Program-made: the position numbers and the translations under genes
Notes under the pieces: model-generated
What the model was told of the DNA's origin: nothing
Database searches by the model: none
What the model saw: only the letters and a program-made list of their open reading frames with translations
NCBI GenBank assembly: GCA_025354165.1
Contig: JANXNI010000002.1
Location: 1-52,350, forward strand
Origin: Burkholderiales bacterium
GTDB taxonomy: Bacteria; Pseudomonadota; Gammaproteobacteria; Burkholderiales; Casimicrobiaceae
Length of the DNA: 52,350 nucleotides
Reading direction: 5' to 3'
Shown: piece by piece, positions 5,257 through 18,345 of the stretch
Layout: every line of letters starts with the position of its first letter
How positions within the stretch are numbered: position 1 is the first letter of the stretch

Positions 5257-5382
5257 AGGTTGGTGCGAATAAGGCTCGCGCCACACTCATTGGATATGCG
5301 TCGATATGATTGGCTGCCCCTCAGCGCAATCAATAGGTGGTGGCCAGCCACCTGTAGATTCCGCTGACCGAGGATATCGGCA

Positions 5383-5607
5383 GTGAATGTAAAAGCAAAT
5401 CCACGCAGAGCTGGCCGGAAGCCACCCTCCATTCCCACCAGGAGCCGTAACTTCCGGTTGAATGACATCGAGTTCGCCGCTCTTCGCGCGGCTGGCGGTG
5501 GTGAGGACGCAACGTTAGGTTTGCGTCGTTTGATATACGACGACGCGGGTGTGCGCCAAGCGATTCGGGATGCGATGGGTCTGAAGCACGATACGAAAGC
5601 CAAGTGA
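5383..5607 (+). CDS. Small basic plasmid protein (74 aa)
   Basis: GTG 5383 is preceded by GAGG at 5370-5373. The product has a basic, Pro-rich N-terminus, then Phe-Arg-Leu-Asn-Asp-Ile-Glu-Phe-Ala-Ala-Leu-Arg-Ala-Ala-Gly-Gly, followed by a predicted helix. Short proteins with this 'Leu-x-Asp-x-Glu-x-x-x-Leu' plus Gly-Gly pattern are common on proteobacterial plasmids and may bind DNA; no function is known to me. It points toward the partition site at 5631-5719. Confidence 0.5.
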   Translation: MNVKANPRRAGRKPPSIPTRSRNFRLNDIEFAALRAAGGGEDATLGLRRLIYDDAGVRQAIRDAMGLKHDTKAK

Positions 5608-5630
5608 ATCGCGGTGACAACGGTCGTCCA

Positions 5631-5719
5631 ATTTTTCACATGAAAAATTTGGAACCGCCGTCATCATTTTTCACATGAAAAATTCTGGAGCCGCATCTGT
5701 CATTTTTCATGTGAAAAAT
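5631..5719. promoter_or_regulatory. Putative parS centromere, three palindromes
   Basis: Two copies of ATTTTTCACATGAAAAAT (5631-5648, 5666-5683) and one in the opposite orientation, ATTTTTCATGTGAAAAAT (5702-5719), spaced 35 and 36 bp. Each has perfect 8-bp arms around a 2-bp centre. The segments between copies are also alike (GGA-x-CCGC). Position just after parB and the TTTCAC/GTGAAA core, as in known parS sites, identify this as the ParB-binding centromere. Confidence 0.8.
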
Positions 5720-5734
5720 GACGACGCATACGGG

Positions 5735-6775
5735 CTATTTGCGCTCGCTTTGAATTAAATCGACTAACCGCGCGAGCGTAGCATCACTCACATAGCTCGC
5801 GAATTCCTTGGGGAATTTGAGCGTCACAGCCCCGGAACGGCTGACCACCTTGGTGAATAGTTGCTCGCCGGAAGGAGATGCAAAGGGCGTAGCTGAGGCT
5901 CGTGGGCGAGTTGGTCGCTCTTCGTCCCCTACGTTCGAATGGTCATCCCACACTCGCGGGATGTCGGCGACCCGAATGTCGCCATTCTCAATTTTCGGCA
6001 TATCGCGGATTATTTGTGCCATATAGCCGCGGCCTTGAGCCACTGATAATGCGTACCCAATACGAAGAGAAAGCGAAGCGATGTTGGTGATCGACGACAC
6101 GATCTCGGGTGCCAAACTTGCAAAACCCATGTAGTAGCTTAATTCGCTATTCGACAATCCACTCATTTCCGCCAATTCGGTCAACGAGGATGCAAACCCC
6201 TCTGCCATGGCAACGGAATATCGCTTGGCTCGGGCGTAATCCGATAAATCTGCACGAAAATCATTCTCCGCCAACATCATGCGGAAAGCAGCCTTGTCGT
6301 CGAGTTCGCGAATAACAACATCTAACTGAAAACCCGCACGCAACGCGGCTTGCCATCGACGAACGCCAGCGATGATCTCAAATCGAATTTCTGGATCGCT
6401 CGCGTCGTGACAAACACGCACAACGCTTGCCTGAACTTGTCCGTCCGCCAGAAGCGATTGGCCTAGCTGATCAAGATCCGCGAACTCGCCTTGCGGTCGA
6501 TCCGCCAGTCGCCAAGGTCGGCAGACTCTGGGATCGACCCTAGCGCGATTGGCGGAAGGGTACAGAGTGACTTGACTGGCGGCCGGAGTTGCATGAGGTC
6601 GCTCCGGTTGAACATGTGGCGTTGCACCGCCCAGTATCGTGGGATCACTGTCGAGCTCCCCCAGCAGACGAGACAGCGCGCCCGAATTCGCCACCCGCTT
6701 ACGACGCTCCGCACTGGAGGGTGGTGGAGGTTTTACTTCTGTGTTCACGGCATCACCTGGCGATTTGAACCCCAT
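5735..6775 (-). CDS. parB: ParB-family partition protein
   Basis: 346 residues from ATG 6775, chosen because GGGAGGTAA lies just upstream; the frame extends to 6817 but overlaps parA. The Lys-Pro-Pro-Pro-rich N-terminus would contact ParA. The central ParB/Srx domain includes Phe-Glu-Ile-Ile-Ala-Gly-Val-Arg-Arg-Trp-Gln-Ala-Ala, the CTPase-type Gly-x-Arg-Arg motif, followed by Leu-Ala-Glu-Asn-Asp-Phe-Arg-Ala-Asp-Leu and a helix-turn-helix (Leu-Ser-Asn-Ser-Glu-Leu-Ser-Tyr-Tyr). The C-terminal 50 residues resemble the dimerisation segment. It would load on the parS palindromes at 5631-5719 and drive segregation with ParA, whose gene ends 5 bp upstream in the same operon. Confidence 0.9.
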   Translation of the reverse strand: MGFKSPGDAVNTEVKPPPPSSAERRKRVANSGALSRLLGELDSDPTILGGATPHVQPERPHATPAASQVTLYPSANRARVDPRVCRPWRLADRPQGEFADLDQLGQSLLADGQVQASVVRVCHDASDPEIRFEIIAGVRRWQAALRAGFQLDVVIRELDDKAAFRMMLAENDFRADLSDYARAKRYSVAMAEGFASSLTELAEMSGLSNSELSYYMGFASLAPEIVSSITNIASLSLRIGYALSVAQGRGYMAQIIRDMPKIENGDIRVADIPRVWDDHSNVGDEERPTRPRASATPFASPSGEQLFTKVVSRSGAVTLKFPKEFASYVSDATLARLVDLIQSERK

Positions 6776-6780
6776 AATCG

Positions 6781-7968
6781 TTACCTCCCGACGCTTGATA
6801 ATGACTGACGCGCCCACGTCGCTCTAAACACCTCAAGCAATTCCTCGTTGGCCGAATCCAATGACGTTATGGCCCTAGCAAATGCTTCCTTGGAACCTCG
6901 CGAACGCTCCGATTCGTATACACCGCCAAAGTCGTTGCTAGCGCGCTCAATTTCGACGGTCTCCACAGTAACCGCATGCATGACGCTTTCCTTGAAGTTG
7001 ACCCGTATCAGTGCTTCGACGTCAGCCGCCTCCGACGTTCCGGTATGCCGAGTGATTAGCACCTTCAAAAAATCCAATGACTTCATAAAAGACGGGCGAG
7101 CCAAAAGTTGTCCCATCGACTGAAAAAACTGTCGAGCTGAACCAAAGTCAGGCATGGCAGGCGGAATCGGAACCAACAACCCCGTCGCCGCGTACACCGC
7201 ATTAAGGGTAAACGTGCCCATGTTCGGTCCACAGTCCAAAACTACGACGTCGTACTGATCTTCAACAGCACTAATCGCAGCTCGCAAGCGCTCGACGGCG
7301 TGAAGGCCCAACGCGGTCTGATTATTTTCGTCGACATTAGCAAGCTGAAGTTCCGCGTCCTGCAAACACAGATTGGCCGGCACAAGATCCACACCAGTGA
7401 AGTACGTCTTTCTAATGACGCTAGGCAAATCCGCTGGGTTCTGTACCAAAACGCTGGCAATCGTGTCTTCAGCTTCGAGATCGAGATCTGGAATAACCCC
7501 AAACATCAATGTCATCGTCGCTTGGGGATCGAGATCAATGGCGAGTACGCGCAGTCCAGTTAAAGCGCACTTCTGAGCTAAATGAACGGCAGTTGTGGTT
7601 TTTCCAGCGCCGCCCTTGAAATTTGTCACTGCGCACACGATGGCTCGTGTGCCTGATGGTCGTTGATACAGCGAGCCTGCGTATCGTCTGTATCGATTTA
7701 TCAGTTCCAGTGAATAGGCCCTGCGCCCAGCATCGTCCCGCAATGGAATGAGGTCGGGATGTTCCGCCTCAAGGCGTTTGAGTGTTGGTCCGCTACGATC
7801 TATCATCTTCGCAGCCGCCTCAATTCCCCACGTGCGTAGCCGCTTTGTTTTGGACGGCGAAGTGATGGCGTCTCGAAGTTTCTCCAGAATAATTGCACCG
7901 TTGTCAGCGTATTTAATCAGTAGCGTAGATGCATCATTGATTTGTGGATTAGTTGCCGTATTTTCCAT
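6781..7968 (-). CDS. parA: ParA partition ATPase with N-terminal HTH
   Basis: 395 residues. Residues about 46-66 look like a helix-turn-helix (Gly-Ile-Glu-Ala-Ala-Ala-Lys-Met-Ile-Asp-Arg-Ser-Gly-Pro-Thr-Leu), then the deviant Walker A motif Phe-Lys-Gly-Gly-Ala-Gly-Lys-Thr-Thr-Thr near residues 117-126, A-prime Leu-Ala-Ile-Asp-Leu-Asp-Pro-Gln, and Walker B Val-Val-Leu-Asp-Cys-Gly-Pro. The length and HTH fit the P1/F SopA-type (type Ia) ParA, which also represses its own operon. It is transcribed divergently from rep across the iteron region, so parAB and rep promoters probably share control sequences in 7969-8314. Confidence 0.92.
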   Translation of the reverse strand: MENTATNPQINDASTLLIKYADNGAIILEKLRDAITSPSKTKRLRTWGIEAAAKMIDRSGPTLKRLEAEHPDLIPLRDDAGRRAYSLELINRYRRYAGSLYQRPSGTRAIVCAVTNFKGGAGKTTTAVHLAQKCALTGLRVLAIDLDPQATMTLMFGVIPDLDLEAEDTIASVLVQNPADLPSVIRKTYFTGVDLVPANLCLQDAELQLANVDENNQTALGLHAVERLRAAISAVEDQYDVVVLDCGPNMGTFTLNAVYAATGLLVPIPPAMPDFGSARQFFQSMGQLLARPSFMKSLDFLKVLITRHTGTSEAADVEALIRVNFKESVMHAVTVETVEIERASNDFGGVYESERSRGSKEAFARAITSLDSANEELLEVFRATWARQSLSSVGR

Positions 7969-9719: not shown

Positions 9720-10103
9720 CTATTTTGGAATTGTAAGAATCGCGCGCAGCTTTGTCCGACCGTCTTTGTCCGCAGCGCGATAAGCCGCGCGCGCCATTGC
9801 AACAAATGCATCTTCTCCTGGAGCCGGACGGGATACGGCGGGGGACAGAGCGAGGCTCAACCAGCCATTCGCCTTCCTGCACCGCGTCTCGATCTGATTG
9901 GCGATAGCGTCACTAATGTTGCGCGATGTTTTGAGTTGGCTTAACAGCGATTTGCTCATCTGCAACCGCTCGGCGAACGCTTTCTCCGTGCCGTTAGTCG
10001 GATCACCCGCTGCGATACGCGCTTGAGAAAAATCTCGCAGCAATAGCAACAGGTTTTCGCGGCGAATCGCGTGCAGCTCACTGTTGTTATTTTGCGTCGA
10101 CAT
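9720..10103 (-). CDS. XRE/Cro-like transcriptional repressor
   Basis: 127 residues. Residues about 36-80 form a helix-turn-helix (Thr-Glu-Lys-Ala-Phe-Ala-Glu-Arg-Leu-Gln-Met-Ser-Lys-Ser-Leu-Leu-Ser-Gln-Leu-Lys), followed by Gln-Ile-Glu-Thr-Arg-Cys... Gly-Trp-Leu-Ser-Leu, the pattern seen in phage-type XRE regulators that end the DNA-binding domain with Gly-Trp. The C-terminal 45 residues are helical. It faces a strong promoter with a palindromic operator at 10126-10153, which it probably represses together with its own gene. Confidence 0.7.
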   Translation of the reverse strand: MSTQNNNSELHAIRRENLLLLLRDFSQARIAAGDPTNGTEKAFAERLQMSKSLLSQLKTSRNISDAIANQIETRCRKANGWLSLALSPAVSRPAPGEDAFVAMARAAYRAADKDGRTKLRAILTIPK

Positions 10104-10125: not shown

Positions 10126-10153
10126 TTGACAATTCGTAAACAGTGTTTACAAT
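10126..10153 (+). promoter_or_regulatory. Strong promoter with palindromic operator
   Basis: TTGACA (10126-10131), 16 bp, TACAAT (10148-10153). The perfect palindrome GTAAACAGTGTTTAC (10136-10150) fills the spacer and overlaps the -10, a classic repressor site. The adjacent divergent XRE gene is the obvious candidate regulator. Confidence 0.7.
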
Positions 10154-10184: not shown

Positions 10185-10427
10185 ATGGGTCGTAGCAGCA
10201 ACATCGTCTGTGCGACCAAACGACGCCCACACCATAAACCACTCAGGAAACGACTTTTCAATCATGTTCAGAGCATTCATACATCAGACGACAGCAAGGG
10301 CCTTACGGCCAATGCCTGTGCTCGCCTGTGCGATGCCAATGAATTCCTGGTCGAAACCATCCCTGTTGGGCGGACAACCTCAGCACAGTTTTATTGCGTG
10401 CTCACTCCCATTGGATCGCGGCTATGA
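10185..10427 (+). CDS. Possible small ORF on the repressor-controlled transcript
   Basis: Two overlapping frames are open. The frame 10185-10427 (up to 80 aa) has good codon character in its second half (ending Gln-Phe-Tyr-Cys-Val-Leu-Thr-Pro-Ile-Gly-Ser-Arg-Leu) but no convincing start signal. The frame 10264-10470 begins at ATG 10264 with AGGAA 12 nt upstream but has weaker codon use. Either could be the product made from the promoter at 10126; equally the 370-nt transcript, which ends at the terminator 10487-10530, may be a non-coding RNA. An inverted repeat TTGAATC/GATTCAA lies at 10166-10185. Confidence 0.3.
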   Translation: MGRSSNIVCATKRRPHHKPLRKRLFNHVQSIHTSDDSKGLTANACARLCDANEFLVETIPVGRTTSAQFYCVLTPIGSRL

Positions 10428-10486
10428 GCCCCCGCCCCGGCATTCGAGAATTTCGGAGAGCGTCGTGTAAATCGCGGCACTCCCCC

Positions 10487-10530
10487 AAAAGCCCGGATGC
10501 TCCGAAAGGACTCCGGGCTTTTTGTTTTTT
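10487..10530 (+). terminator. Strong Rho-independent terminator
   Basis: AAAAGCCCGGA (10487-10497) pairs with TCCGGGCTTTT (10512-10522), followed by TGTTTTTT. It closes the short transcript from 10126 and insulates the tRNA array from it. Confidence 0.85.
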
Positions 10531-10657
10531 GGTGCGCAACGCTGTGTCGCTGCCGATCGCAAGATCGAGTGCGATCAGCGTATCTGGTGCGGTGCTGCAT
10601 CGTCTCTCATAGCGGAGCCGGTGTGTCGGCGGTACAGCGTTGTGCATCGAAGCAAAA

Positions 10658-10674
10658 CACTCTTTAACAATCAG
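10658..10674 (+). promoter_or_regulatory. boxA-like antitermination site before the tRNA array
   Basis: CACTCTTTAACAATCAG contains CTCTTTAACAAT, identical to the core of the rRNA-operon boxA that binds NusB/NusE. It lies 44 bp before the first tRNA. A hairpin (CCCCGCGTA/TACGTGGGG, one mismatch, GAAA loop) lies between it and the tRNA. A promoter between 10531 and 10657 is expected; I cannot fix it (an inverted repeat GATCGCA/TGCGATC is present near 10553-10574). Confidence 0.6.
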
Positions 10675-10717: not shown

Positions 10718-10793
10718 GCGGACATAGCTCAATAGGCAGAGCGCGACGCTTCCAACGTCGAGGTTGCAGGTTCGATGCCTGTTGTCCGCTCCA
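10718..10793 (+). tRNA. tRNA-Gly(TCC)
   Basis: Full cloverleaf: acceptor GCGGACA/TGTCCGC, D-stem GCTC/GAGC, anticodon loop CTTCCAA, T-loop TTCGATG, CCA encoded. First gene of the array. Confidence 0.92.
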
Positions 10794-10796
10794 TAC

Positions 10797-10831
10797 CGCA
10801 GTGCCTTCATGATGAGAGGACACTGCGGGAT
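10797..10831 (+). repeat. Intergenic hairpin between tRNA-Gly and tRNA-Pro
   Basis: CCGCAGTG pairs with CACTGCGG, with an inner CCT/AGG stem. Possibly a processing or stability element of the precursor transcript. Confidence 0.4.
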
Positions 10832-10841
10832 GGAAGTTATT

Positions 10842-10920
10842 CGGTGTGTAGGCTAGCCCGGTCGAAGTCGTCTGCTTTGGGAGCAGAAAACCGCAGGTTC
10901 AAATCCTGCCACACCGACCA
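10842..10920 (+). tRNA. tRNA-Pro(TGG)
   Basis: Acceptor CGGTGTG/CACACCG, anticodon stem TCTGC/GCAGA with loop TTTGGGA, T-stem GCAGG/CCTGC with loop TTCAAAT, CCA encoded. Confidence 0.93.
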
Positions 10921-11093
10921 AATGGGCATCAGACGAGATGGGCGACGAATGTCTACCCGGATCGTGTGATGCGCGAAGGTGATCACGGAAAGTACGGCAA
11001 ATGCGGAACGTGATTGCATCGCTGCCCACGGCTGGTAGCCAACGGTAGAGGCTCAGCGACAGCACGCGATTGTCGCGGGGAGCCACCCTTTAC
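10921..11093 (+). other. Spacer in the array with a possible tRNA relic
   Basis: No intact tRNA. The part at about 11027-11085 contains a D-arm-like TAGCCAACGGTAGAGGC, a 6-bp hairpin GCGACA/TGTCGC and GGCT/AGCC ends followed by ACC, which could be a deleted tRNA lacking one arm. This is weak. Confidence 0.25.
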
Positions 11094-11187
11094 GGAAAAT
11101 TGGCAGAGTGGCTTATTGCACCTGATTTGAAATCAGTGATGTCCTGTGAACCAGGGCGCGAGGGTTCGAATCCTTCATTTTCCGCCA
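11094..11187 (+). tRNA. tRNA-Ser(TGA)
   Basis: Acceptor GGAAAAT/ATTTTCC with G73, anticodon loop TTTGAAA, long class II variable arm (GTCCTGTGAACCAGGGC), T-loop TTCGAAT, CCA encoded. Confidence 0.92.
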
Positions 11188-11196
11188 GTGTTTTTT

Positions 11197-11285
11197 GGAA
11201 GATTGCCAGAGTGGACTATTGGCACGGTTTGCTAAACCGATGGTCGCGGCAATGCGGCACGAGCGTTCGAATCGCTCACCTTCCG
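11197..11285 (+). tRNA. tRNA-Ser(GCT)
   Basis: Acceptor GGAAGAT/ACCTTCC with one A-C mismatch, anticodon loop TGCTAAA, long variable arm, T-loop TTCGAAT. The template reads G then CAA, so the 3' CCA is not encoded, unlike the other tRNAs of the array. Confidence 0.88.
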
Positions 11286-11306
11286 CAACGACGGTTAGAC
11301 AGTTAC

Positions 11307-11381
11307 TGCGGGGTATATCAGCGGCAGATTGCCGGTCTCATAAGCCGATGGACGTGCGTTCGAATCGCACCCCCGCAACCA
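11307..11381 (+). tRNA. tRNA with CAT anticodon (copy 1)
   Basis: Acceptor TGCGGGG/CCCCGCA, anticodon loop CTCATAA, T-stem GTGCG/CGCAC with loop TTCGAAT, CCA encoded. T1-A72 is paired and the anticodon stem lacks three G-C pairs, so it is not a canonical initiator. Elongator Met is likely, Ile2 (lysidine-modified) cannot be excluded. The anticodon stem has a C-A mismatch at its base. Confidence 0.82.
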
Positions 11382-11403
11382 CATCAGCTCGTCAGATCAC
11401 ATT

Positions 11404-11479
11404 GCCGCTAAAGCTAACCCGGTGGAAGCGCCTGTTTGAAGAGCAGGAGGGCAAGGCTCGACACCTTGTGGCGGCGCCA
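11404..11479 (+). tRNA. tRNA-Phe(GAA)
   Basis: Acceptor GCCGCTA/TGGCGGC (two wobble pairs) with G73, anticodon stem CCTGT/GCAGG with loop TTGAAGA, T-stem CAAGG/CCTTG. The T-loop CTCGACA has C54 in place of T54. CCA encoded. Confidence 0.8.
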
Positions 11480-11494
11480 TTGCTTTACTTTTTT

Positions 11495-11569
11495 GTTCCG
11501 TTCGATTTTCGGTGAGATCACCAGACTTTCAATCTGGCCAGACGGGTTCGACTCCCGTACGGAACGCCA
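11495..11569 (+). tRNA. tRNA-Glu(TTC)
   Basis: Acceptor GTTCCGT/ACGGAAC with G73, anticodon loop CTTTCAA on stem CCAGA/TCTGG, T-loop TTCGACT, CCA encoded. Confidence 0.9.
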
Positions 11570-11575
11570 TGTTTT

Positions 11576-11651
11576 GGGTCTTTAGCTCATTTGGGAGAGC
11601 GCCTGTTTTGCACGCAGGAGGCGGCGAGTTCGAATCTCGCAAGATCCACCA
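11576..11651 (+). tRNA. tRNA-Ala(TGC)
   Basis: Acceptor GGGTCTT/AAGATCC contains the G3-U70 wobble pair that specifies alanine. Anticodon loop TTTGCAC, T-loop TTCGAAT, A73, CCA encoded. Confidence 0.94.
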
Positions 11652-11657
11652 TTTTCA

Positions 11658-11722
11658 GGTGCCTTAATCCAGTCTTCGGGAGAGCGTGCAAGATCGCGGT
11701 GGGTTGAACTCCCGCAGGTCCA
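11658..11722 (+). pseudogene. Degenerate tRNA-like sequence
   Basis: A good T-arm (GTGGG/CCCGC with loop TTGAACT) and a D-arm-like GTCTTCGGGAGAGC are present, but the acceptor (GGTGCCT against AGGTCCA) has mismatches and the anticodon arm is shortened to about GCG/CGC around TGCAAGAT. About 65 nt long. It is probably a decayed member of the array; its former identity cannot be read. Confidence 0.5.
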
Positions 11723-11735
11723 AAATTCACTCAAG

Positions 11736-11811
11736 AGGGGAGTAGCTCAGTTGGTAGAGCATCGGATTTTGATTCCGACGGTCTCAGGTTCGAACCCTGC
11801 CTCCCCCGCCA
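11736..11811 (+). tRNA. tRNA-Gln(TTG)
   Basis: Acceptor AGGGGAG/CTCCCCC (A1-C72 mismatch) with G73, anticodon stem TCGGA/TCCGA with loop TTTTGAT, T-loop TTCGAAC, CCA encoded. Confidence 0.88.
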
Positions 11812-11826
11812 CTCCATCACTTCAAT

Positions 11827-11901
11827 GGCGCATTAGCTCAGCGGCAGAGCACCGGATTGTCTATCCGGCCGTCGGCGGTTCGATCCCGCCATGCGTCGCC
11901 A
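11827..11901 (+). tRNA. tRNA-Asp(GTC)
   Basis: Acceptor GGCGCAT/ATGCGTC with G73, anticodon stem CCGGA/TCCGG with loop TTGTCTA, T-stem GGCGG/CCGCC with loop TTCGATC, CCA encoded. Confidence 0.94.
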
Positions 11902-11911
11902 ACTTGTCCCT

Positions 11912-11989
11912 GCATCGCTGGCGCAATCGGCAGACGCGCTGTTTTCAAAAAGCAGATTTCTCTCGGTTCGAATCCGAGGCGATGCACCA
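11912..11989 (+). tRNA. tRNA with CAA anticodon (Leu)
   Basis: Acceptor GCATCGC/GCGATGC with A73, anticodon loop TTCAAAA, T-stem CTCGG/CCGAG with loop TTCGAAT, CCA encoded. The variable region is only about 6 nt, whereas bacterial tRNA-Leu has a long arm, so charging with Leu is uncertain. Confidence 0.78.
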
Positions 11990-12004
11990 CACAAAATAGT
12001 CAAT

Positions 12005-12083
12005 GCCCCAATGGTGGAATCGGTAGACACCGCCGCCTTAAAAACGGTCGCTATTGCGCGTTCGAATCGCGCTTGGGGCACCA
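12005..12083 (+). tRNA. tRNA-Leu(TAA)
   Basis: Acceptor GCCCCAA/TTGGGGC with A73, Leu-type D-arm (TGGTGGAATCGGTAGACAC), anticodon loop CTTAAAA, T-stem GCGCG/CGCGC, CCA encoded. The anticodon stem has one mismatch and the variable arm is short for Leu. Confidence 0.85.
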
Positions 12084-12102
12084 TGCAATTCACAACAGTT
12101 TC

Positions 12103-12185
12103 GCCCTCCTGGTGGAACGGCAGACACACCTGTCTTAGGAACAGGCGCACAAGCATTCCGAGTTCGAATCTCGGGGAGGGCACCA
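12103..12185 (+). tRNA. tRNA-Leu(TAG)
   Basis: Acceptor GCCCTCC/GGAGGGC with A73, anticodon stem CCTGT/ACAGG with loop CTTAGGA, a class II variable arm of about 12 nt, T-loop TTCGAAT, CCA encoded. Its last base abuts the toxin gene on the other strand. Confidence 0.92.
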
Positions 12186-12473
12186 CTACCGCTTCAGCGC
12201 AGTGTAGAAATTCTCGTGGGGCCCCAGCGCTAGCAGCACAACCGTCTTCGGTTTGAGTTTACTGGGCACGAGCTCATACGCAAGCAAGGTTTCTTGCTTG
12301 TTGAGTTTGAATTTGTGAACGAACACACCCAGCAAGTCGCCTTTTTTCTCCTCGCCGATCGCTGGGTTTTCGGCAACCGCTGCCACCTCGGAATCGACGA
12401 CCTTTTTGTCCTTCGCGTGCAGCTTTTTGACCACACGATCAAACGATGAAGTCGCGCTAATCGTCAGCGCCAC
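12186..12473 (-). CDS. RelE/ParE-type toxin
   Basis: 95 residues with the compact RelE/ParE layout: an N-terminal helix (Ser-Phe-Asp-Arg-Val-Val-Lys-Lys-Leu), a second helix (Lys-Lys-Val-Val-Asp-Ser-Glu-Val), then a beta-sheet (Gly-Val-Phe-Val-His-Lys-Phe-Lys-Leu... Leu-Leu-Ala-Tyr-Glu-Leu) and a C-terminal Leu-Ala-Leu-Gly-Pro-His-Glu-Asn-Phe-Tyr. Such toxins are mRNA interferases or gyrase poisons. The antitoxin gene ends 4 bp upstream. The pair sits inside the tRNA array, antisense to it, with the toxin stop directly against the CCA of tRNA-Leu(TAG). Confidence 0.8.
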   Translation of the reverse strand: MALTISATSSFDRVVKKLHAKDKKVVDSEVAAVAENPAIGEEKKGDLLGVFVHKFKLNKQETLLAYELVPSKLKPKTVVLLALGPHENFYTALKR

Positions 12474-12476
12474 GCC

Positions 12477-12695
12477 CTAGCCAAACTCATAGGGTGAAAC
12501 ATGGCCGGCCTTCACTTCTTCGCGCGAAAGCAGAATATCTTGCACCGTCCGAAGCGGAAGCTCTGGATTCTCCAAGACAGCCTTTCCAATTCGCGCCCAG
12601 TATTCAATTTGTTTTGGTACGGACCGATGTTCCGCCGCAGCGGCGACCTTGGCTACATCGACCAGTTCATCGGAGAGTTTCAGAGCAGTGGCCAT
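12477..12695 (-). CDS. ParD-like antitoxin
   Basis: 72 residues from ATG 12695 (CAGGAG upstream); the frame is open to 12746 but without a better start. The sequence Ala-Leu-Lys-Leu-Ser-Asp-Glu-Leu-Val-Asp-Val-Ala-Lys... Arg-Ser-Val-Pro-Lys-Gln-Ile-Glu-Tyr-Trp-Ala-Arg matches the ParD-like antitoxin family with a ribbon-helix-helix N-terminus that dimerises on its own operator. It precedes the toxin, the usual order. It would neutralise the toxin and repress the operon; the promoter should lie in 12696-12775. Confidence 0.8.
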   Translation of the reverse strand: MATALKLSDELVDVAKVAAAAEHRSVPKQIEYWARIGKAVLENPELPLRTVQDILLSREEVKAGHVSPYEFG

Positions 12696-12777
12696 GCGTG
12701 GCTCCTGTGAGCGTTGAATTGTCAAGGTTGCATTATATGGCGACATGCAACCTTTTACTACCCGCTGTGCCGATCAC

Positions 12778-12855
12778 CGCGCGATGGCCGAGTGGCCCAA
12801 GGCAACTGCCTGCAAAGCAGTCAAATCGCTGGTTCGAATCCAGCTCGCGCGTCCA
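12778..12855 (+). tRNA. tRNA-Cys(GCA)
   Basis: Acceptor CGCGCGA/TCGCGCG with T73 (a cysteine identity base), anticodon stem ACTGC/GCAGT with loop CTGCAAA, T-loop TTCGAAT, CCA encoded. It resumes the array after the toxin-antitoxin pair. Confidence 0.93.
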
Positions 12856-12935
12856 CCTCCGATTAGCGCGACATCGCGCGCGAATTCACAAAATAGGCAT
12901 GCCTGCGTCAGTCAAACGCAGACGGTCACTTTTAC

Positions 12936-13012
12936 GCCCCCGTAGCTCAGCCGGAAGAGCACTCGCCTTGTAAGCGAGCGGCCGCGCGTTCGAATCGTCG
13001 CCGGGGGCACCA
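12936..13012 (+). tRNA. tRNA-Thr(TGT)
   Basis: Acceptor GCCCCCG/CGGGGGC with A73, anticodon stem CTCGC/GCGAG with loop CTTGTAA, CCA encoded. The T-stem (GCGCG against CGTCG plus one extra C) pairs poorly, so the gene may be decaying. Confidence 0.82.
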
Positions 13013-13016
13013 TTAT

Positions 13017-13092
13017 TCCTCGATAGCTCATTGGGTAGAGCGCTCGGCTGTTAACCGAGAGGCGCGTGGGTCGGAGCCACGTCGAGGAGCCA
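13017..13092 (+). tRNA. tRNA-Asn(GTT)
   Basis: Acceptor TCCTCGA/TCGAGGA with G73, anticodon stem CTCGG/CCGAG with loop CTGTTAA, T-stem CGTGG/CCACG. The T-loop GTCGGAG lacks both T54 and A58. CCA encoded. Confidence 0.88.
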
Positions 13093-13098
13093 ATTACC

Positions 13099-13182
13099 GG
13101 AGAGTTGTCCGAGCGGTCGAAGGAGCCTGACTGTAAATCAGGTCACACAAGCGCGTTGGTTCGAATCCAGCACTCTCCACCA
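13099..13182 (+). tRNA. tRNA-Tyr(GTA)
   Basis: Acceptor GGAGAGT/ACTCTCC with A73, anticodon stem CCTGA/TCAGG with loop CTGTAAA, class II variable arm, T-loop TTCGAAT, CCA encoded. Confidence 0.93.
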
Positions 13183-13194
13183 CTTTTGATTCAT

Positions 13195-13271
13195 GAGTCA
13201 GTAGCTCAAGCTGGCAGAGCGCCGGTCTCCAAAACCGGAGGTTCGCGGTTCGACCCCGTGCTGATTCGCCA
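13195..13271 (+). tRNA. tRNA-Trp(CCA)
   Basis: Acceptor GAGTCAG/CTGATTC with G73, anticodon stem CCGGT/ACCGG with loop CTCCAAA, T-loop TTCGACC, CCA encoded. Confidence 0.92.
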
Positions 13272-13279
13272 TTTCCGAT

Positions 13280-13354
13280 AGACGTGTAGCTCAGTGGCAG
13301 AGCGTCGCCCTCATAAGGCGAAAGTCGATGGATCGTTCCCATCCACGTTTACCA
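13280..13354 (+). tRNA. tRNA with CAT anticodon (copy 2)
   Basis: Acceptor AGACGTG/CACGTTT with A73, anticodon stem TCGCC/GGCGA with loop CTCATAA, T-stem GATGG/CCATC. The T-loop ATCGTTC has A54 and T58, the reverse of the universal T54-A58. Met or Ile2. CCA encoded. Confidence 0.85.
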
Positions 13355-13363
13355 ATTTTTCCT

Positions 13364-13439
13364 GCGTCTGTAGCTCAACTGGCAGAGCACCCGGCTTTTA
13401 ACCGGTAGGTTGTCGGATCATCCCCGACCGGACGCACCA
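13364..13439 (+). tRNA. tRNA-Lys(TTT)
   Basis: Acceptor GCGTCTG/CGGACGC with A73, anticodon loop CTTTTAA, T-stem GTCGG/CCGAC. The T-loop ATCATCC shows the same A54/T58 swap as the preceding tRNA. One mismatch at the base of the anticodon stem. CCA encoded. Confidence 0.86.
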
Positions 13440-13447
13440 GCACACTT

Positions 13448-13525
13448 CCCTCGTTAGCTCAGCGGAATCAGAGCTCCCGGCTTCGAACCGGGCGGTCGGG
13501 CGTTCGAATCGCTCACGAGGGGCCA
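13448..13525 (+). tRNA. tRNA-Arg(TCG)
   Basis: Acceptor CCCTCGT/ACGAGGG with G73, anticodon stem CCCGG/CCGGG with loop CTTCGAA, T-loop TTCGAAT, CCA encoded. TCG replaces the usual bacterial ACG (inosine) tRNA for the CGN box. Confidence 0.92.
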
Positions 13526-13532
13526 CGCTTGT

Positions 13533-13609
13533 CTGTCCTTAGCTCAGCGGACTAGAGCAGCCGTCTTCTAAGCGGCATGTCGCACGTTCGAATCGTGCAG
13601 GACGGGCCA
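13533..13609 (+). tRNA. tRNA-Arg(TCT)
   Basis: Acceptor CTGTCCT/AGGACGG with G73, anticodon stem GCCGT/GCGGC with loop CTTCTAA, T-stem GCACG/CGTGC with loop TTCGAAT, CCA encoded. Confidence 0.92.
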
Positions 13610-13652
13610 GTTTCAGGCGTCAAATGTGCTTTTTAGCGATTTTGTCAACCAA

Positions 13653-13727
13653 TGCTGCGTAGCTCAGAGGCAGAGCAATCGCTTGATAAGCGATAGGCCG
13701 TCGGTTCAATCCCGACCGCAGCAACCA
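13653..13727 (+). tRNA. tRNA-Ile(GAT)
   Basis: Acceptor TGCTGCG/CGCAGCA with A73, anticodon stem ATCGC/GCGAT with loop TTGATAA, T-stem GTCGG/CCGAC with loop TTCAATC, CCA encoded. Confidence 0.93.
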
Positions 13728-13743
13728 CTTTCATCAGTTCAAC

Positions 13744-13819
13744 GGTGTTCGTAGCTTAATGGCAAAGCCCCAGATTGTGAATCTGGCGGATGCCGGTTCA
13801 ATCCCGGTCGAGCACCCCA
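13744..13819 (+). tRNA. tRNA-His(GTG)
   Basis: Acceptor GTGTTCG/CGAGCAC with an encoded G(-1) opposite C73, the histidine identity pair. Anticodon stem CCAGA/TCTGG with loop TTGTGAA, T-loop TTCAATC, CCA encoded. Last tRNA of the array; no terminator is seen before the HNH gene. Confidence 0.94.
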
Positions 13820-13883: not shown

Positions 13884-14468
13884 GTGCGCGTCTTGAAACT
13901 CGACATCAGCGGTGTTCCAGAGTCATGGATCACGCTGGAACACGCGGTTGGCTACTACGCCACCGGCAGCGTCGCGTACACGCTAGGCGACGCGATGAGC
14001 ACGCTTCGCGGTGGTCACAATCATCGCGGGCTCCGCTCGACTGTGGACGTGCATCCCATCATCGCAGTCAATGGTGTGTCCGCTGCTGGCAAACTACTCT
14101 CCGCAACGCCGCGACTGACGCGGCACAACCACAAGCTGTTCCGGCGTGATCGTTACACCTGTGGTTATTGCGGTGGGCTATTTCGTGAACATGAATTGGA
14201 ACGCGAACACGTGATCCCGACCAGTCGCGGCGGCAAAGACAGTTGGACGAATGTGGTGAGCGCGTGTCGGTCGTGCAACCAGGTCAAGGCGGCAAAGACA
14301 CCGGAAGAAGCGGGCATGCCGCTTCTGTACGTGCCGTATCAGCCATCACGTTGGGAAGACATGATTCTGCAAACTCGGGTCGATCACATCCTCGCGGATC
14401 AAATGGACTTCCTGCGCGCCAATCTGCCACGAAGTTCTAGATTGGCGGGCTCGTTTGGGTTGGTCTAA
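13884..14468 (+). CDS. HNH endonuclease
   Basis: 194 residues from GTG 13884, chosen for GGAG 6 nt upstream; TTG 13866 is in frame. The C-terminal half holds the HNH fold: Cys-Gly-Tyr-Cys zinc knuckle, Arg-Glu-His-Val-Ile-Pro-x-Ser-Arg-Gly-Gly with the catalytic His, Trp-Thr-Asn-Val-Val-Ser-Ala-Cys, and Cys-Arg-Ser-Cys-Asn with the second knuckle and the final N. The N-terminal 80 residues are a separate domain of the kind found in 'HNH endonuclease' genes beside phage and plasmid tRNA clusters. No terminator separates it from the tRNA array, so it may be read from the same transcript. It could be a homing-type nuclease or a defence nuclease. Confidence 0.85.
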   Translation: MRVLKLDISGVPESWITLEHAVGYYATGSVAYTLGDAMSTLRGGHNHRGLRSTVDVHPIIAVNGVSAAGKLLSATPRLTRHNHKLFRRDRYTCGYCGGLFREHELEREHVIPTSRGGKDSWTNVVSACRSCNQVKAAKTPEEAGMPLLYVPYQPSRWEDMILQTRVDHILADQMDFLRANLPRSSRLAGSFGLV

Positions 14469-14473: not shown

Positions 14474-14516
14474 GAGGGCAGCGACGTCAATACTTCGGTG
14501 TGACGTCGCTGCCCTC
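14474..14516. terminator. 16-bp perfect inverted repeat between convergent genes
   Basis: GAGGGCAGCGACGTCA (14474-14489) is exactly matched by its complement at 14501-14516 around an 11-nt loop. It lies between the HNH and PLD nuclease stop codons and includes the last codons of the latter. No T run on either strand. A bidirectional terminator or mRNA 3'-end protector is likely. Confidence 0.55.
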
Positions 14517-15089
14517 ATACCAAAGTCTGCGCCATTCCAATCCATACTGTTTTGCAAGCTGAGGTTGGTTGCGCAGTAGCAAGGCGTTTCCTGCGTTCCG
14601 CTTCTTTGCGGACGATGTGAAGTTCTCGGATCCAGTCCAAACATCTCGTTCGTCGAATACTGCGAATTTATAGTGCAATATCGCGTACCGCTCATTGATG
14701 CGGACGGGGATACTCTCGTTCGCTAGAAACTGAATTGCAGAGTAGCCTTGTTTGGCTGATCCTGCATCAGCCACGACGAACACTCTGACGCCGCGTTTCG
14801 ACGCACGCTGAAGTGCAACGGCGACATCTTTGTGCGAAAACGCGTAAGCAGCGAGAAGCACGGATTGTTTCGCGGCATCAGTTGAGCGAATGAGCTGCAG
14901 CATCGGTGATTGATGCGGTGAGAACACTACCTCCGCCGGCGACTGATTGAGCTGCATGGTCGAGCTGTGGTCTTGCCCCGACGCGTTCGCTAATGCCAGC
15001 GCGAGGGCTGGACATGTAGTGAGCAAACAAAGGAGCAGGGCGGGCAAACCGCAGCTCAGACTGTGTGTTGCGGTTGTAAATAGCGTCAT
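14487..15089 (-). CDS. Exported phospholipase-D-family nuclease
   Basis: 200 residues: an N-terminal signal peptide (hydrophobic to about residue 35), then a single PLD domain with His139-Tyr-Lys141 and Asp146 (the HKD motif) followed by Thr-Gly-Ser-Glu-Asn-Phe-Thr. One HKD copy per chain and a signal sequence fit the Nuc/EndA-like endonucleases of conjugative plasmids (for example Nuc of IncN pKM101), which dimerise to form the active site and degrade DNA in the periplasm. It is the last gene of the minus-strand run from traD. Confidence 0.85.
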   Translation of the reverse strand: MTLFTTATHSLSCGLPALLLCLLTTCPALALALANASGQDHSSTMQLNQSPAEVVFSPHQSPMLQLIRSTDAAKQSVLLAAYAFSHKDVAVALQRASKRGVRVFVVADAGSAKQGYSAIQFLANESIPVRINERYAILHYKFAVFDERDVWTGSENFTSSAKKRNAGNALLLRNQPQLAKQYGLEWRRLWYEGSDVTPKY

Positions 15090-15123
15090 GGAGCGTTCTC
15101 AATTTGCGTAAACATTGGATGGT

Positions 15124-17286
15124 TTAGGCCGGTGCAAGCAGATCAAGCAAGCTTGCTCGTTTGAGCACGGCCTCGGCGTTAACGATGTCGTTGGCGACTT
15201 GAGCCTTGTCGTCGAGCATCGCCCACATAATGTCGTCCAACGTACCCTCGAATAGAAATATTTTCGAGATCACAAGGCGTGTCTGGCCTTGCCGATCAGC
15301 GCGCGACTCGGCCTGGTCGAGGAGCCCCGGAGTCCAAGGCAACGAGGCACAGGCGACATAGTTCGCGGCTTGCAGATTGTTGCCTGTTGCGCCGGCACCA
15401 AAGGTGGCCACGAGCGCACGCACATCGTCGTTCTGTTGAAAGGCATCGATCGCCTTTTGTCGTTTTGCCGGTGTGTCGTCTCCGACGATAGTGACTACCT
15501 GGCTGGCCTCCGACGTGAGACGCCGCTTGAGCAGATTGACGGTTTCTCGGAACTCTGTAAAAACCAACAGCTTGTCCGTCGGCAACAAATCCTGAAAAAA
15601 GCGCACGATGACGTCGACGCGCTCCCGTTCGAGCAGCATTCGCAGCGAAATGACCTTCTCCAGGCAATACTTGCTGCCATCGCGCATTAGCGCGTTGTAT
15701 TTCTCCCGTGCGGGGTCAGGGAGCGGCAGGCGCAGCACCTGGCGTTGGCGACCCTTCAGATCGCGTAAAACGAGGTTCTTCCGTCGCCGGAGCATCCAGT
15801 CGGAGATTAGGCCGCCCAGATTGTTTCGCAGTGCGTGCGAGCCCGCGTACGTGGCTTGAAATTCGTTGAGTGGCAACAGACCAATTGGATGACCGGATAG
15901 ATGCAGCAAAGTGTGCAGCTCCGCCTCGCGATTGAGCACAGGCGTGCCGGTGAGCAGGTATCGAACCGGCACGCGCGCAGCAATTTCAAACGTCAATCGA
16001 GTGCGCTCTGCGGCAGGCTCTTTGAGGTAGTGCGCTTCGTCAACCACCATGACCGCAAAGCGATGGGCGAAGAGGGTGAGTCGTCCAAGCAACTCATAGT
16101 TGCAGATGACCCACTCAGCCATCGGATCGTAGTCTCGAACGACCGTCGTGGCGGTCGGAAAGACCATGTGGATCTCGCGCTGCCAGTTGATCACGAGGCT
16201 CGCCGGTGCAATGATGAGTATCTGGTTGCGCCCGGCACCCAATTCGGTGCCCGGCGCCTGCGTCCCTGGGCCGCAGTGTTCTTGTTCTTCGGCGACAAAT
16301 GTCGCGTCTCGTGCCTTGCCCTTTGTGTCGTCTGCGTCGTACGTATCGTCAGCACGCGAAAGCATGCTTTGCAGTTTGATGAACGCTGCGATCACTGCCT
16401 GGCGGGTTTTGCCAAGCCCGGGATCATCTGCCAGCAGTGCGGAAGATCGCGGGATGAGAAAGCGAATGCCTGCAGCCTGATAGTCTTTGATCGGATAATG
16501 ATCAAGATTGACCGGTGCGAATGATTCTTCCCCATGGTCGTCTCGAAACGCGTCGACGGTGGCCAGCAGCGCACCTGCGACTTCATCTTCTGCGGGTAGC
16601 CCGCGTGGCTCAGGCACTTTGCCTGAGACCTGGATCCAGGGCTCGCTACCGTGGGAGTTTTCCTTGAACTCGTATTCACCGTCCATCACAACGATCGACG
16701 CGGCTTCGCGCTCCGTCAATTGCAACTCGCGAACCAGTTCGTCTTTGAACAGATCTGCTGATGCGCGGGCTACTAACCACCCTCGACAGCTCGGCGCATA
16801 TTTTCCGCCGCTACGACGTGCGACGGCGATCGCGCCACGATGAAACGCAGTGACCGACATGAACCCGCCATTCTTCAGCGGGTAGAGCTTGCCGTTAAAT
16901 CCATGAACAAACGCGCGCGGCGCCGGTTGTTGCCGGGCCTCGGCGATGACTTGCCGCAGCCGTTCAACAGCGAGCTCCGTGAGCGCTGTTTGGTCTTCGT
17001 AGAGCAGCGGGTGTTCGACCAAGGCGGAGATGCGGCTCACGCGACCCGTGACGACGGCGGCTGCCAATGCCTCGATATGGGTGTCGACAACAAGTTCCTG
17101 GAACAGCCAGAAGTGCCGGTAAGGGTGACCCGTACCAGAGATGTAGGTGCCCTTGAAGGGCTCCGCTTTGAGAATGGCGGGGAGTCCGACAAAGAATTCG
17201 AAACGCAACCCGTATTGGTAGCCGTCGAAAACGGCCTCGATAGCGGACAGGCTGGCGTTGATCGTCGTTCTAACTAGTGGAAGCAT
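15124..17286 (-). CDS. SNF2-family DNA-dependent ATPase
   Basis: 720 residues. The C-terminal two thirds are a SNF2 motor: Walker A Asp-Pro-Gly-Leu-Gly-Lys293-Thr, Asp-Glu-Ala-His at 416-419, Leu-Leu-Thr-Gly-Thr-Pro near 445, and motif VI Gln-Ala-Glu-Ser-Arg-Ala-Asp-Arg-Gln-Gly-Gln near 660. The insert at about 310-350 is hydrophilic. The first 260 residues are unassigned, with a patch (His-Arg-Gly-Ala-Ile-Ala-Val-Ala-Arg-Arg) that may bind DNA, as the HARP domain does in SMARCAL1-like annealing helicases. ATG 17286 follows directly on the stop of the upstream gene, so translation is coupled. A role in remodelling or annealing plasmid DNA is inferred; restriction-like systems also use SNF2 motors. 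Confidence 0.88.
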   Translation of the reverse strand: MLPLVRTTINASLSAIEAVFDGYQYGLRFEFFVGLPAILKAEPFKGTYISGTGHPYRHFWLFQELVVDTHIEALAAAVVTGRVSRISALVEHPLLYEDQTALTELAVERLRQVIAEARQQPAPRAFVHGFNGKLYPLKNGGFMSVTAFHRGAIAVARRSGGKYAPSCRGWLVARASADLFKDELVRELQLTEREAASIVVMDGEYEFKENSHGSEPWIQVSGKVPEPRGLPAEDEVAGALLATVDAFRDDHGEESFAPVNLDHYPIKDYQAAGIRFLIPRSSALLADDPGLGKTRQAVIAAFIKLQSMLSRADDTYDADDTKGKARDATFVAEEQEHCGPGTQAPGTELGAGRNQILIIAPASLVINWQREIHMVFPTATTVVRDYDPMAEWVICNYELLGRLTLFAHRFAVMVVDEAHYLKEPAAERTRLTFEIAARVPVRYLLTGTPVLNREAELHTLLHLSGHPIGLLPLNEFQATYAGSHALRNNLGGLISDWMLRRRKNLVLRDLKGRQRQVLRLPLPDPAREKYNALMRDGSKYCLEKVISLRMLLERERVDVIVRFFQDLLPTDKLLVFTEFRETVNLLKRRLTSEASQVVTIVGDDTPAKRQKAIDAFQQNDDVRALVATFGAGATGNNLQAANYVACASLPWTPGLLDQAESRADRQGQTRLVISKIFLFEGTLDDIMWAMLDDKAQVANDIVNAEAVLKRASLLDLLAPA

Positions 17287-17511
17287 TTACGATTGCCGTG
17301 TTGCGCCAAGCGTGGCCATCACGGCTAGGAGCGCAGTCGTTGAAGCCGCCTTACGAGAGATCAACGCTGGCCAGAACTTCGTGTGCTGCGCGCAATACGT
17401 ATCCGGCGCGTCGTGAAACATGTAGCAGTGGTCGCCAGGCGCTGCATCTTCTCGGTGACCACATCCAACGCAGCATTGCTGTGTGATGGGCGGCTTTTTC
17501 GCATCGGCCAT
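17287..17511 (-). CDS. Small Cys-rich protein with C-terminal hydrophobic segment (74 aa)
   Basis: The product begins Met-Ala-Asp-Ala-Lys-Lys and has Cys-Cys-Val-Gly-Cys-Gly-His near residue 13 and further Cys/His (His-Cys-Tyr, His-Asp, Cys-Ala-Gln-His) before residue 45, a spacing that suggests metal binding. The last 20 residues (Thr-Thr-Ala-Leu-Leu-Ala-Val-Met-Ala-Thr-Leu) are hydrophobic. Its stop touches the start of the SNF2 gene. No family is recognised. The ribosome-binding site is weak, so the start is uncertain. Confidence 0.55.
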   Translation of the reverse strand: MADAKKPPITQQCCVGCGHREDAAPGDHCYMFHDAPDTYCAQHTKFWPALISRKAASTTALLAVMATLGATRQS

Positions 17512-17615
17512 TGGCGTGTCTCAGCAAGTGATTGGCAAGGAAATACGCCCGACGAAGCGTCGAAGCGCGAGGAGGGCATGTCACACGCAAACGCGGTGAC
17601 ATGCCCGTGCGAGAC

Positions 17616-17777
17616 CTAGCGAAGGATCCACATGCCCACTGCCGCCGCAATGCCACCCATCACCGCGAATTTCTTTGCCTTCATTTTCGCGGGGTCATTG
17701 TCTTTTTTCATGATGAACCAAATGAGGCCGCCGGCAAGCGCACCTGCGACAACCGCGTAGACGATCTGAGTACCCAT
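17616..17777 (-). CDS. Two-TM small membrane protein (53 aa)
   Basis: ATG 17777 has GGAG 8 nt upstream. Two hydrophobic helices (residues about 4-22 and 38-52) are separated by a charged loop containing Lys-Lys-Asp-Asn-Asp-Pro-Ala-Lys-Met-Lys-Ala-Lys-Lys; the first helix is Gly/Ala-rich (Ala-Gly-Ala-Leu-Ala-Gly-Gly). A hairpin membrane protein with both ends on the same side is expected. It lies directly downstream of the mini-hairpin array at 17845-17978 in the traD operon. Function unknown; a coupling-complex or channel accessory is possible. Confidence 0.65.
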   Translation of the reverse strand: MGTQIVYAVVAGALAGGLIWFIMKKDNDPAKMKAKKFAVMGGIAAAVGMWILR

Positions 17778-17844
17778 ACTTTTCACTCCAGTTGTAGTTG
17801 CAATACGCTCAGCTCAGCAGCGCACCGGAGTGGTGATGCCGCGG

Positions 17845-17978
17845 TCGCGGAGCGAGTCCTTAATGTTGGCGAAGCCAACTTCTTAGCCCGCGAAGCGGGT
17901 CCTTTTCGTGGCGTAGCCACGTCCTTATGCTGGGCGGCTTGCCGCCCAGCTTCTTCCGTCGAGGCATAGCCGAAGACG
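17845..17978. repeat. Array of six consecutive mini-hairpins
   Basis: Perfect or near-perfect hairpins: TCGC-GGA-GCGA (17845-17855), GTTGGC-GAA-GCCAAC (17865-17879), CCCGC-GAA-GCGGG (17887-17899), CGTGGC-GTA-GCCACG (17907-17921), a 10-bp stem with TT loop (17929-17950), and CGTC/GACG enclosing GGC-ATA-GCC (17957-17978). Centres are 21-27 bp apart and linkers read TCCTT or TTCTT. Four contain GCGNAGC, the motif known to form exceptionally stable DNA mini-hairpins. It lies between the gene ending at 18022 and the RBS of the gene starting at 17777 (minus strand). Confidence 0.7.
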
Positions 17979-18021
17979 CTTGCTAAGGCAAACCTATCCC
18001 TTTGCTGCAGGTTCACGCACT

Positions 18022-18345
18022 TCATTGCGAAGCCCATATGTCTATGCCCAGCCGTTCCGCCAACGCGCGCAGATCGTCAAAGGAATTAACAGGCACACGC
18101 TCAAGTCTTTCGTTGTTACGATCACCAGCCTCAACGAGATCGTGCGATCTCAGTAGGTCGAGTCCTTGCTCATTCGCGTAGGAGAGCAGGGTTTCTTTGA
18201 TCGCCTGAAAACCGAACATCTGTTCTGTTTTGGCGAGGCTGTCGGAAAACGCCCTTGCGTTGCCTGTAAGGTAGGGCGCATGCCTTACGATGCTCGTATC
18301 GGAATGATGGTGCGTCGTGTTTTGCAAGGCGCGATCAGAATTCAT
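18022..18345 (-). CDS. Hypothetical protein downstream of traD (107 aa)
   Basis: ATG 18345 overlaps the end of the preceding gene (stop at 18335), so it is translationally coupled; the frame is open upstream to 18393 without a better start. The N-terminal third is His/Thr-rich, the rest helical (Phe-Gly-Phe-Gln-Ala-Ile-Lys-Glu-Thr-Leu-Leu-Ser-Tyr-Ala, then Phe-Asp-Asp-Leu-Arg-Ala-Leu-Ala-Glu-Arg-Leu-Gly-Ile). Soluble; no domain recognised. Position in the traD run suggests a conjugation or regulation accessory. Confidence 0.5.
   Translation of the reverse strand: MNSDRALQNTTHHHSDTSIVRHAPYLTGNARAFSDSLAKTEQMFGFQAIKETLLSYANEQGLDLLRSHDLVEAGDRNNERLERVPVNSFDDLRALAERLGIDIWASQ

Follow-up and report, generated by a model that had tools for sequence, protein, structure and literature searches.

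A plasmid-borne tRNA array preceded by a phage-CI-like regulator gene, a structured leader and a boxA-like element in a Burkholderiales bacterium

Known mobile tRNA arrays and the present locus

Arrays of tRNA genes on mobile elements are known from mycobacteria, Anabaena and an integrative and conjugative element (ICE) of Acidithiobacillus ferrooxidans, as far as the accessible text of the sources goes, and are thus better known than a preliminary description of the DNA studied here had stated. The subject of this study is an array of 24 tRNA genes at positions 10718–13819 of a 52,350-nucleotide stretch from a Burkholderiales bacterium (contig JANXNI010000002.1), the whole of which we call the window, together with the control region in front of the array and the HNH endonuclease gene behind it. 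The closest system with experimental tests is the trn operon of Anabaena sp. PCC 7120, whose 26 tRNAs lie on the delta plasmid and are kept silent by the repressor TrcR (PMC10272220). According to the accessible text of that paper, the operon is induced by, among others, chloramphenicol, spectinomycin-type antibiotics and streptomycin, not by penicillin G or kasugamycin; the TrcR regulon includes RtcB and HNH genes, and the paper cites earlier work in which expression of trn was found to aid survival in the presence of antibiotics. The window resembles this system in being a near-complete plasmid tRNA operon behind a putative repressor, with HNH and RtcB genes in the regulon in Anabaena. It differs in that TrcR (all0854) is a ribbon-helix-helix (RHH) protein, while the window carries a CI-like helix-turn-helix (HTH) gene divergent from the array itself, a regulator not of the RHH type, and in that the same text describes neither a boxA nor a structured leader for trn.

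The plasmid RPME01 of Methylibium petroleiphilum PM1 carries an array of similar layout, with 27 tRNAs, a divergent HTH homologue upstream, an HNH gene 3' of the array, a boxA matching 12/12 letters at -63 and a conjugative backbone of MPF_F type. Unlike the window, it covers all 20 amino acids (its gene list equals that of locus L105), is far less restricted to tRNAs with uridine at position 34 (U34), and holds AlkB-like and HD-domain genes inside the array. The mycobacterial tRNA array units, such as that of M. avium pS2b, are likewise plasmid arrays of 26–37 tRNAs with an HNH gene, although they belong to another phylum and no more than 8/12 boxA letters are matched in front of the pS2b array; in the accessible portions of the sources, the M. 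avium plasmid array is termed a putative antidefence system (PMC12803027), and a homing role for HNH genes next to arrays is already suggested for mycobacteria and phages. The Acidithiobacillus arrays, which lie in an ICE or genomic island (the ICE placement being that of A. ferrooxidans), are mobile and near-complete, but chromosome-carried, and T4 SegB and the phage tRNA clusters offer a homing endonuclease adjoining tRNA genes, a likeness of position.

Plasmid tRNA arrays themselves are therefore known, and it is the control cassette, present in three families of one order, that appears to be new. A literature search that left most subscription journals outside, and in which the repressor was not sought by its own terms, gave no report of a boxA or a CI-like repressor associated with mobile tRNA arrays. 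The reading we favour, and hold to be reasonably probable, is that the array is a silenced spare tRNA operon, derepressed upon damage to tRNAs or translation to give an emergency supply, and mobilised by the HNH enzyme; induction and benefit would follow the analogy with Anabaena.

The control region in front of the array

Three syntenic arrays occur in the same genus, L060 (18 tRNA genes, at a contig end), L061 (26, near the end of an 874-kb contig) and L062 (15, set among genes for ComEC, aldehyde dehydrogenase and HemB). Ahead of the array, the window and all three siblings have a divergent HTH gene and a promoter rich in palindromes, as well as a terminator-like hairpin and a boxA-bearing leader. 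In the window, the features run as follows.

9720..10103, minus strand: HTH repressor gene, 127 amino acids, divergent from the array (PHROG 'transcriptional repressor', E 2.4e-4)
10126..10153, plus strand: sigma-70-type promoter TTGACA-16-TACAAT towards the array (11/12 consensus letters)
10136..10150, strandless: predicted operator within the promoter, GTAAA-N5-TTTAC type (exact palindrome)
10486..10530, plus strand: intrinsic-terminator-like hairpin and T run between promoter and array (aligned in four arrays, folds in each)
10529..10650, plus strand: structured leader RNA with a long closing helix and inner hairpins (covariation, four sequences)
10658..10672, plus strand: boxA-like antitermination element, CTCTTTAACAAT at 10660-10671 (likeness to rrn leaders)
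10718..13819, plus strand: tRNA array, 24 genes (ARAGORN, Rfam)
13884..14468, plus strand: HNH endonuclease gene directly 3' of the array (Pfam HNH_5, E 2.4e-16)

The HTH protein, for which Pfam gave no match, is 57, 55 and 57% identical in L060, L061 and L062, respectively. Its family profile matches the phage-type repressor chain 5d50 (E 7e-4) and resembles CI/Cro repressors, and we describe the regulator as phage-CI-like in this sense. The promoter is conserved in the three siblings, the whole scan having given 4 promoters compared with 2.2 in shuffles, and palindromes resembling the predicted operator precede the HTH gene at several other loci. The hairpin at 10486–10530 was not listed by the consensus scanner. 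The leader RNA comprises 43 pairs, 13 of them changed on both sides, with 96.5% of cells paired; its covariation of 0.403, against 0.200 in shuffles, was reached by 0 of 500 shuffles, and slid versions gave at most 0.112, all for a structure of four sequences derived from the very alignment that was scored. The boxA-like element has the sequence of an rRNA-type boxA, being near-identical to those in rRNA leaders of the genus (TGCTCTTTAAGAATT in both copies of genome G005, CGCTCTTTAAGAATT in G012), and a role in recruiting the Nus complex can be proposed on this ground. Among the window and 199 loci, the exact 10-mer CTCTTTAACA is confined to the 24–108 nt before array starts, its carriers being the window, L060, L061, L062, L077, L083, L105 and copies of these loci.

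Two further candidates in this region were discarded. The open reading frame at 10264–10470 is open with a similar end in four siblings, but in each of the six pairs the three codon positions have changed to about the same extent, and protein coding is therefore unsupported. A possible antiterminator pairing of the same stretch with the terminator, spotted by eye, has one compensatory change (in L062) among four sequences and is not claimed.

The HTH gene goes together with arrays: among the cellular or plasmid loci, it is present at 23 of the 34 that have at least three tRNAs as against 3 of the 59 with fewer, a count made with a profile built from its own hits and on loci picked via HNH. It lies divergent and upstream in 24 of 26 loci, in 23 of these at 377–833 nt from the first tRNA. 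As a less biased test of linkage, the HTH alignment was searched in 399 genomes of the order, which gave matches in 44, from which 30 loci were taken, none but the window and the genome of L061 being among the loci collected earlier. Eight of the ten best loci (E ≤1.3e-49; three families) carry tRNAs on the other strand within the 3.4-kb locus, or six of eight once the window and the genome of L061 are removed, and three of the ten also show RtcB; among the 20 weaker loci, a single one contains a tRNA gene, which lies on the same strand. When the class as a whole was searched with the single HTH protein, matches beyond the host were weak only (4 of 274 genomes). A promoter faces the array at 21 of the 26 HTH loci, compared with 2.45 expected from mononucleotide shuffles, although those of L105 and L210 (the same sequence) fall within the predicted frame of the HTH gene and several of the loci are closely related.

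This combination could also be read as giving the leader itself the role of damage sensor. The CI-like repressor and the terminator, structured RNA and boxA would then form a two-step switch reading the loss of tRNAs or of translation, the whole tRNA pool would be swapped on demand, RtcB would carry out repair, and the HNH protein could act on RNA instead of in homing; we consider this unlikely.

tRNA content, anticodon choice and host counterparts

ARAGORN found all 24 tRNA genes of the window on the plus strand, covering 19 amino acids with Val absent, in line with the preliminary description, and at 24 genes per 3.1 kb the locus has the density of a tRNA array unit (roughly 20 tRNAs or more, at least two per kb). 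Of the 24 genes, 23 reach the Rfam tRNA cut-off and 23 encode CCA. The gene without CCA is Ser-GCT at 11197, whose sole Rfam match is to tRNA-Sec, at 34.6 bits and below the cut-off. Because it also has an acceptor mismatch, whereas the copy on the plasmid of G012 has CCA and no mismatch, this gene may be failing. The array is thus real and nearly all of its genes are intact, and its kind is already known. Leu has three genes, Ser two and Arg two; the CAT tRNA at 11307 is initiator-like (A11-U24, U1-A72; read by eye), and that at 13280 could be an elongator Met or an Ile2, on which the coverage of AUA depends.

As had been reported, each of seven four-codon boxes (Gly TCC, Pro TGG, Ala TGC, Thr TGT, Ser TGA, Leu TAG, Arg TCG) is read by a single U34 tRNA. 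We surveyed the anticodons of 24 arrays with at least 15 tRNAs, relatives included and hence not independent. U34 makes up 26/30 of Pro, 21/23 of Ala, 15/18 of Val, 18/28 of Thr, 16/26 of Leu, 11/17 of Ser, 16/32 of Gly and 4/24 of Arg genes, and is the commonest choice in each four-codon box but Arg, where A34 occurs in 18 of 24, and Gly, which is even. From this dominance of U34 it follows that anticodon choice is non-random, and related arrays do not have the haphazard anticodons that would have spoken against the preliminary description. The U34-only state in every box present is shared by the window (7/7), L179 (7/7) and L107 (3/3), and Val is absent in 6 of the 24 arrays (the window, L061, L062, L091, L107 and L151), some of which end at contig ends. 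One suggested explanation, that such sets compensate codon usage for plasmid genes or for a broad host range, as phage tRNAs and by extension arrays are often understood in the accessible literature, seems very improbable, since one U34 tRNA per box favours no particular codons and the host already has these boxes.

The view of the array as near to one tRNA per box holds in so far as it is mobile, near-complete and rich in U34, yet this is no rule: the 'minimal' set is a tendency, and the sibling arrays are more redundant. L060 carries Ser-GGA and Ser-CGA, L061 carries Leu-GAG and both Gly-GCC and Gly-TCC, and Arg-ACG is found in L061 and L062, so that the avoidance of inosine through Arg-TCG is true of the window and local to it. 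The first slot is occupied by Gly-TCC in the window and by Gly-GCC in L060 and L061 (75 and 79% identical, with the same anticodon stem), and the separate Gly-TCC present in L061 is missing from the window. Arg-ACG lies between Thr and Asn in L061 and before Asn in L062 (where Thr was undetected) and is missing in the window, whose Arg-TCG is placed at a position new relative to the siblings; the Ile-GAT that follows Leu-TAG is gone, and another, different one stands before His. These changes at Gly, Arg and Ile look like upkeep of coverage, with a polarity that we infer without an outgroup.

The array also contains the following.

10960..11093, plus strand: conserved non-tRNA stretch between tRNA-Pro and tRNA-Ser (D-arm-like hairpin and second hairpin)
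about 11657..11725, plus strand: probable decayed tRNA with the anticodon arm missing (read by eye)
12186..12473, minus strand: ParE-like toxin (Pfam PF15781, E 5.1e-32)
12477..12746, minus strand: ParD-like antitoxin (Pfam PF11903, E 5.1e-18)

The stretch at 10960–11093 has a counterpart in L060 (2838–2954) and none in L061, and neither copy has an Rfam match at cut-off; matches to YrlA were far below cut-off and overlapped tRNAs, and were rejected. The ParDE-like pair interrupts the array on the opposite strand (12186–12746). The idea that it replaced a tRNA-Val was dropped: Val is found in L060 alone, where it fills the Ile-Cys slot, and is lacking in the other three arrays (the window, L061 and L062), for which reason its loss and its gain cannot be told apart. 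Read by eye, L061 has two long near-perfect palindromes between tRNA-Ile and tRNA-Cys (9855–9976), the position of tRNA-Val in L060, and L060 (3850–4005) and L061 (10500–10630) share a conserved stretch between tRNA-Gln and tRNA-Asp that the window lacks. L060 (3689–3760) and L062 (9998–10069) also hold, again by eye, tRNA-Ala-like genes with anticodon TGC, G3-U70 and a four-pair tetraloop D arm. These have no standard T loop, are unlisted by ARAGORN and are candidates for an elbow-less bacterial tRNA-Ala.

The neighbourhood of the array is plasmid-like, as had been claimed: the window encodes a Rep3 initiator, ParA and ParB, and the F-type transfer proteins TraC, TraU, TraH, TraG and TraE with a coupling protein. 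It forms contig 42 in a draft genome of 97 contigs and 4.7 Mb, which has 66 tRNA matches in total and in which a 16S gene was not found. A contig of G012, of the same genus, is nearly the same plasmid, its array being 99% identical over the 1491 bases compared and having the same 24 anticodons. DNA searches returned no plasmid or phage record covering 80% of the array, the matches listed covering at most 11%.

ARAGORN detected 42 host tRNAs in the stretches fetched, with 2–4 genes per four-codon box and mixed wobble bases. Four array anticodons have no counterpart among them, and for the others the array and host tRNAs of the same anticodon are 59–86% identical (20 comparisons); as in tRNA array units, the array is redundant with chromosomal tRNAs and does not consist of recent duplicates. 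Such divergence, together with the viral contigs in which the HNH family stands beside arrays (40 of 52 loci with at least three tRNAs), could be taken to mean that the tRNAs form an anti-defence set whose altered anticodon loops resist anticodon nucleases of host or phage, as the accessible text of van den Berg et al. 2023 proposes for phage tRNAs. The loop mutations relative to the host that characterise phage anti-nuclease tRNAs were not found, though: 12 of the 20 loops are identical to the host's, including Lys, Tyr and Asn, seven differ at 32 or 38 only, and Asp differs also at 37. Evasion through loop mutation is therefore unsupported, and we regard this explanation as rather doubtful, even if resistance via other determinants is possible given the differing stems. 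The earlier suggestion that the array replaces tRNAs destroyed by anticodon nucleases keeps its plausibility and is strengthened by the RNA-repair neighbours in relatives.

The HNH gene, RtcB and the proposed function

As in the tRNA array units, an HNH gene stands next to the array. Its product is 80, 71 and 50% identical in L061, L062 and L063, and its domain is weakly like PtuB of Septu (E 2.5e-8). With this protein as bait we took the best 80 of 540 genome loci and 52 viral loci. Around HNH in these 132 loci, 745 tRNAs lie on the same strand and 13 on the opposite one. The bias is strong 5' of HNH (200 versus 1 in genomes, 312 versus 1 in viral loci), and 3' of it the counts are 5 versus 11 in genomes and 228 versus 0 in viral loci; a same-strand tRNA lies within 1 kb 5' in 24 of the 80 genome loci and 26 of the 52 viral ones. 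In L061 a gene for a NACHT-domain protein lies just 3' of the HNH gene (5317–7722; no PADLOC match), and in L063, whose genome is from another family of the order, an EF-G gene (16927–18996) follows the tRNA array and HNH gene.

Strand-consistent linkage of this kind, and the many HNH loci with few or zero tRNAs, would also be expected of a selfish passenger, in which a homing HNH gene and its tRNA flanks spread among plasmids, phages and chromosomes with little benefit and decay after insertion. The decayed tRNA and the damaged Ser-GCT of the window point the same way, as do 77-bp inserts seen by eye at the same T-loop place in the Gln, Leu-TAA and Cys tRNA genes of L062 (10132–10208, 10461–10537 and 10778–10854). 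The second and third inserts are 82 and 90% identical to the first, there is one partial copy elsewhere in the L062 genome and short matches in G002, and the insert seems to be a small element targeting tRNA T loops. A mere passenger, however, would leave unexplained the conserved repressor, operator, covarying leader and boxA, the U34-biased coverage and the apparent anticodon replacement at Gly, and we judge it improbable.

Some neighbours of related arrays point to RNA repair. In a survey with nine chosen proteins, 15 of 84 cellular-genome loci, ten of the 15 with at least three tRNAs, had RtcB on the same strand as HNH, and in L106 and L107 it lies within the array; among six genomes of the genus, it was found in G002, G003 and G010, and not in the host, G005 or G012. 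Twenty frames in or near arrays, 19 of them hand-chosen for length and position from 146 and one (L210) taken via its annotation, with L216 and L217 already annotated, comprise eight that are repair-, tRNA- or stress-related, eight that are unrelated or of function not known, and four without matches. The first group holds RtcB (L106, L107, L072), an RNA ligase (L217), a release-factor-like protein (L216), an AlkB-type oxygenase (L105), an HD-domain HD_4 protein (L210) and, with a tRNase Z match below the cut-off, a metallo-beta-lactamase-fold protein (L132).

In the spare-operon reading that we prefer, the 24 tRNAs would be the payload of a self-contained, horizontally moving cassette. The divergent CI-like repressor, bound to palindromic operators overlapping the promoter, would keep the operon low until tRNA or translation damage, whether due to antibiotics or to the anticodon nucleases that phages, defence systems or rivals deploy, makes repression fail. 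RNA polymerase would then pass the leader hairpin, and the rRNA-type boxA would recruit the Nus complex, allowing 3 kb of untranslated RNA to be made without Rho termination; the near-complete U34 set would let translation continue, and the HNH enzyme would most likely spread the array by homing.

Several observations weigh against this. Val is missing, and therefore the set is not self-sufficient, although the preliminary description had taken it to look selected for self-sufficiency. At least 10/12 boxA letters occur within 250 nt upstream in just 15 of 46 properly scored arrays, some of them related (of 50 arrays, L164 and three with too little upstream sequence were left out), and the 12-mer CTCTTTAACAAT is present twice more in the host genome, at sites with no rRNA downstream in the stretches taken. 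None of the 52 viral loci has the HTH gene, which is also absent from 11 of the 34 cellular or plasmid loci with at least three tRNAs, and RtcB was found neither in the window or the host draft genome nor in any of 8 plasmid loci and the 52 viral loci. As many as 50 of the 80 genome HNH loci are tRNA-free, as are 5 of the 52 viral loci, and array-less HNH genes are therefore common in genomes. As for Anabaena, TrcR being of the RHH type makes the parallel functional and not homologous, and the accessible text of PMC10272220 reports, besides the failure of kasugamycin to induce trn, that deletion of trn left the resistance of the trcR mutant to BMAA and kasugamycin unchanged, a finding that speaks against a straightforward benefit under these two drugs.

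The dedicated repressor, operator, leader RNA and boxA offer handles on the question of why full tRNA sets are carried by plasmids and phages. The recurring neighbourhood of HTH gene, array, HNH and RtcB, seen in records that mostly bear betaproteobacterial names, connects mobile tRNA arrays with the damage and repair of RNA, in agreement with the cyanobacterial TrcR regulon, and can serve as a search signature for such cassettes. Elsewhere in the window, genes for a PLD-family nuclease (DrmC-like match) and an SNF2 helicase adjoin the HNH gene (14487–17286), and an Erf-type annealing protein is encoded at 21232–22083.

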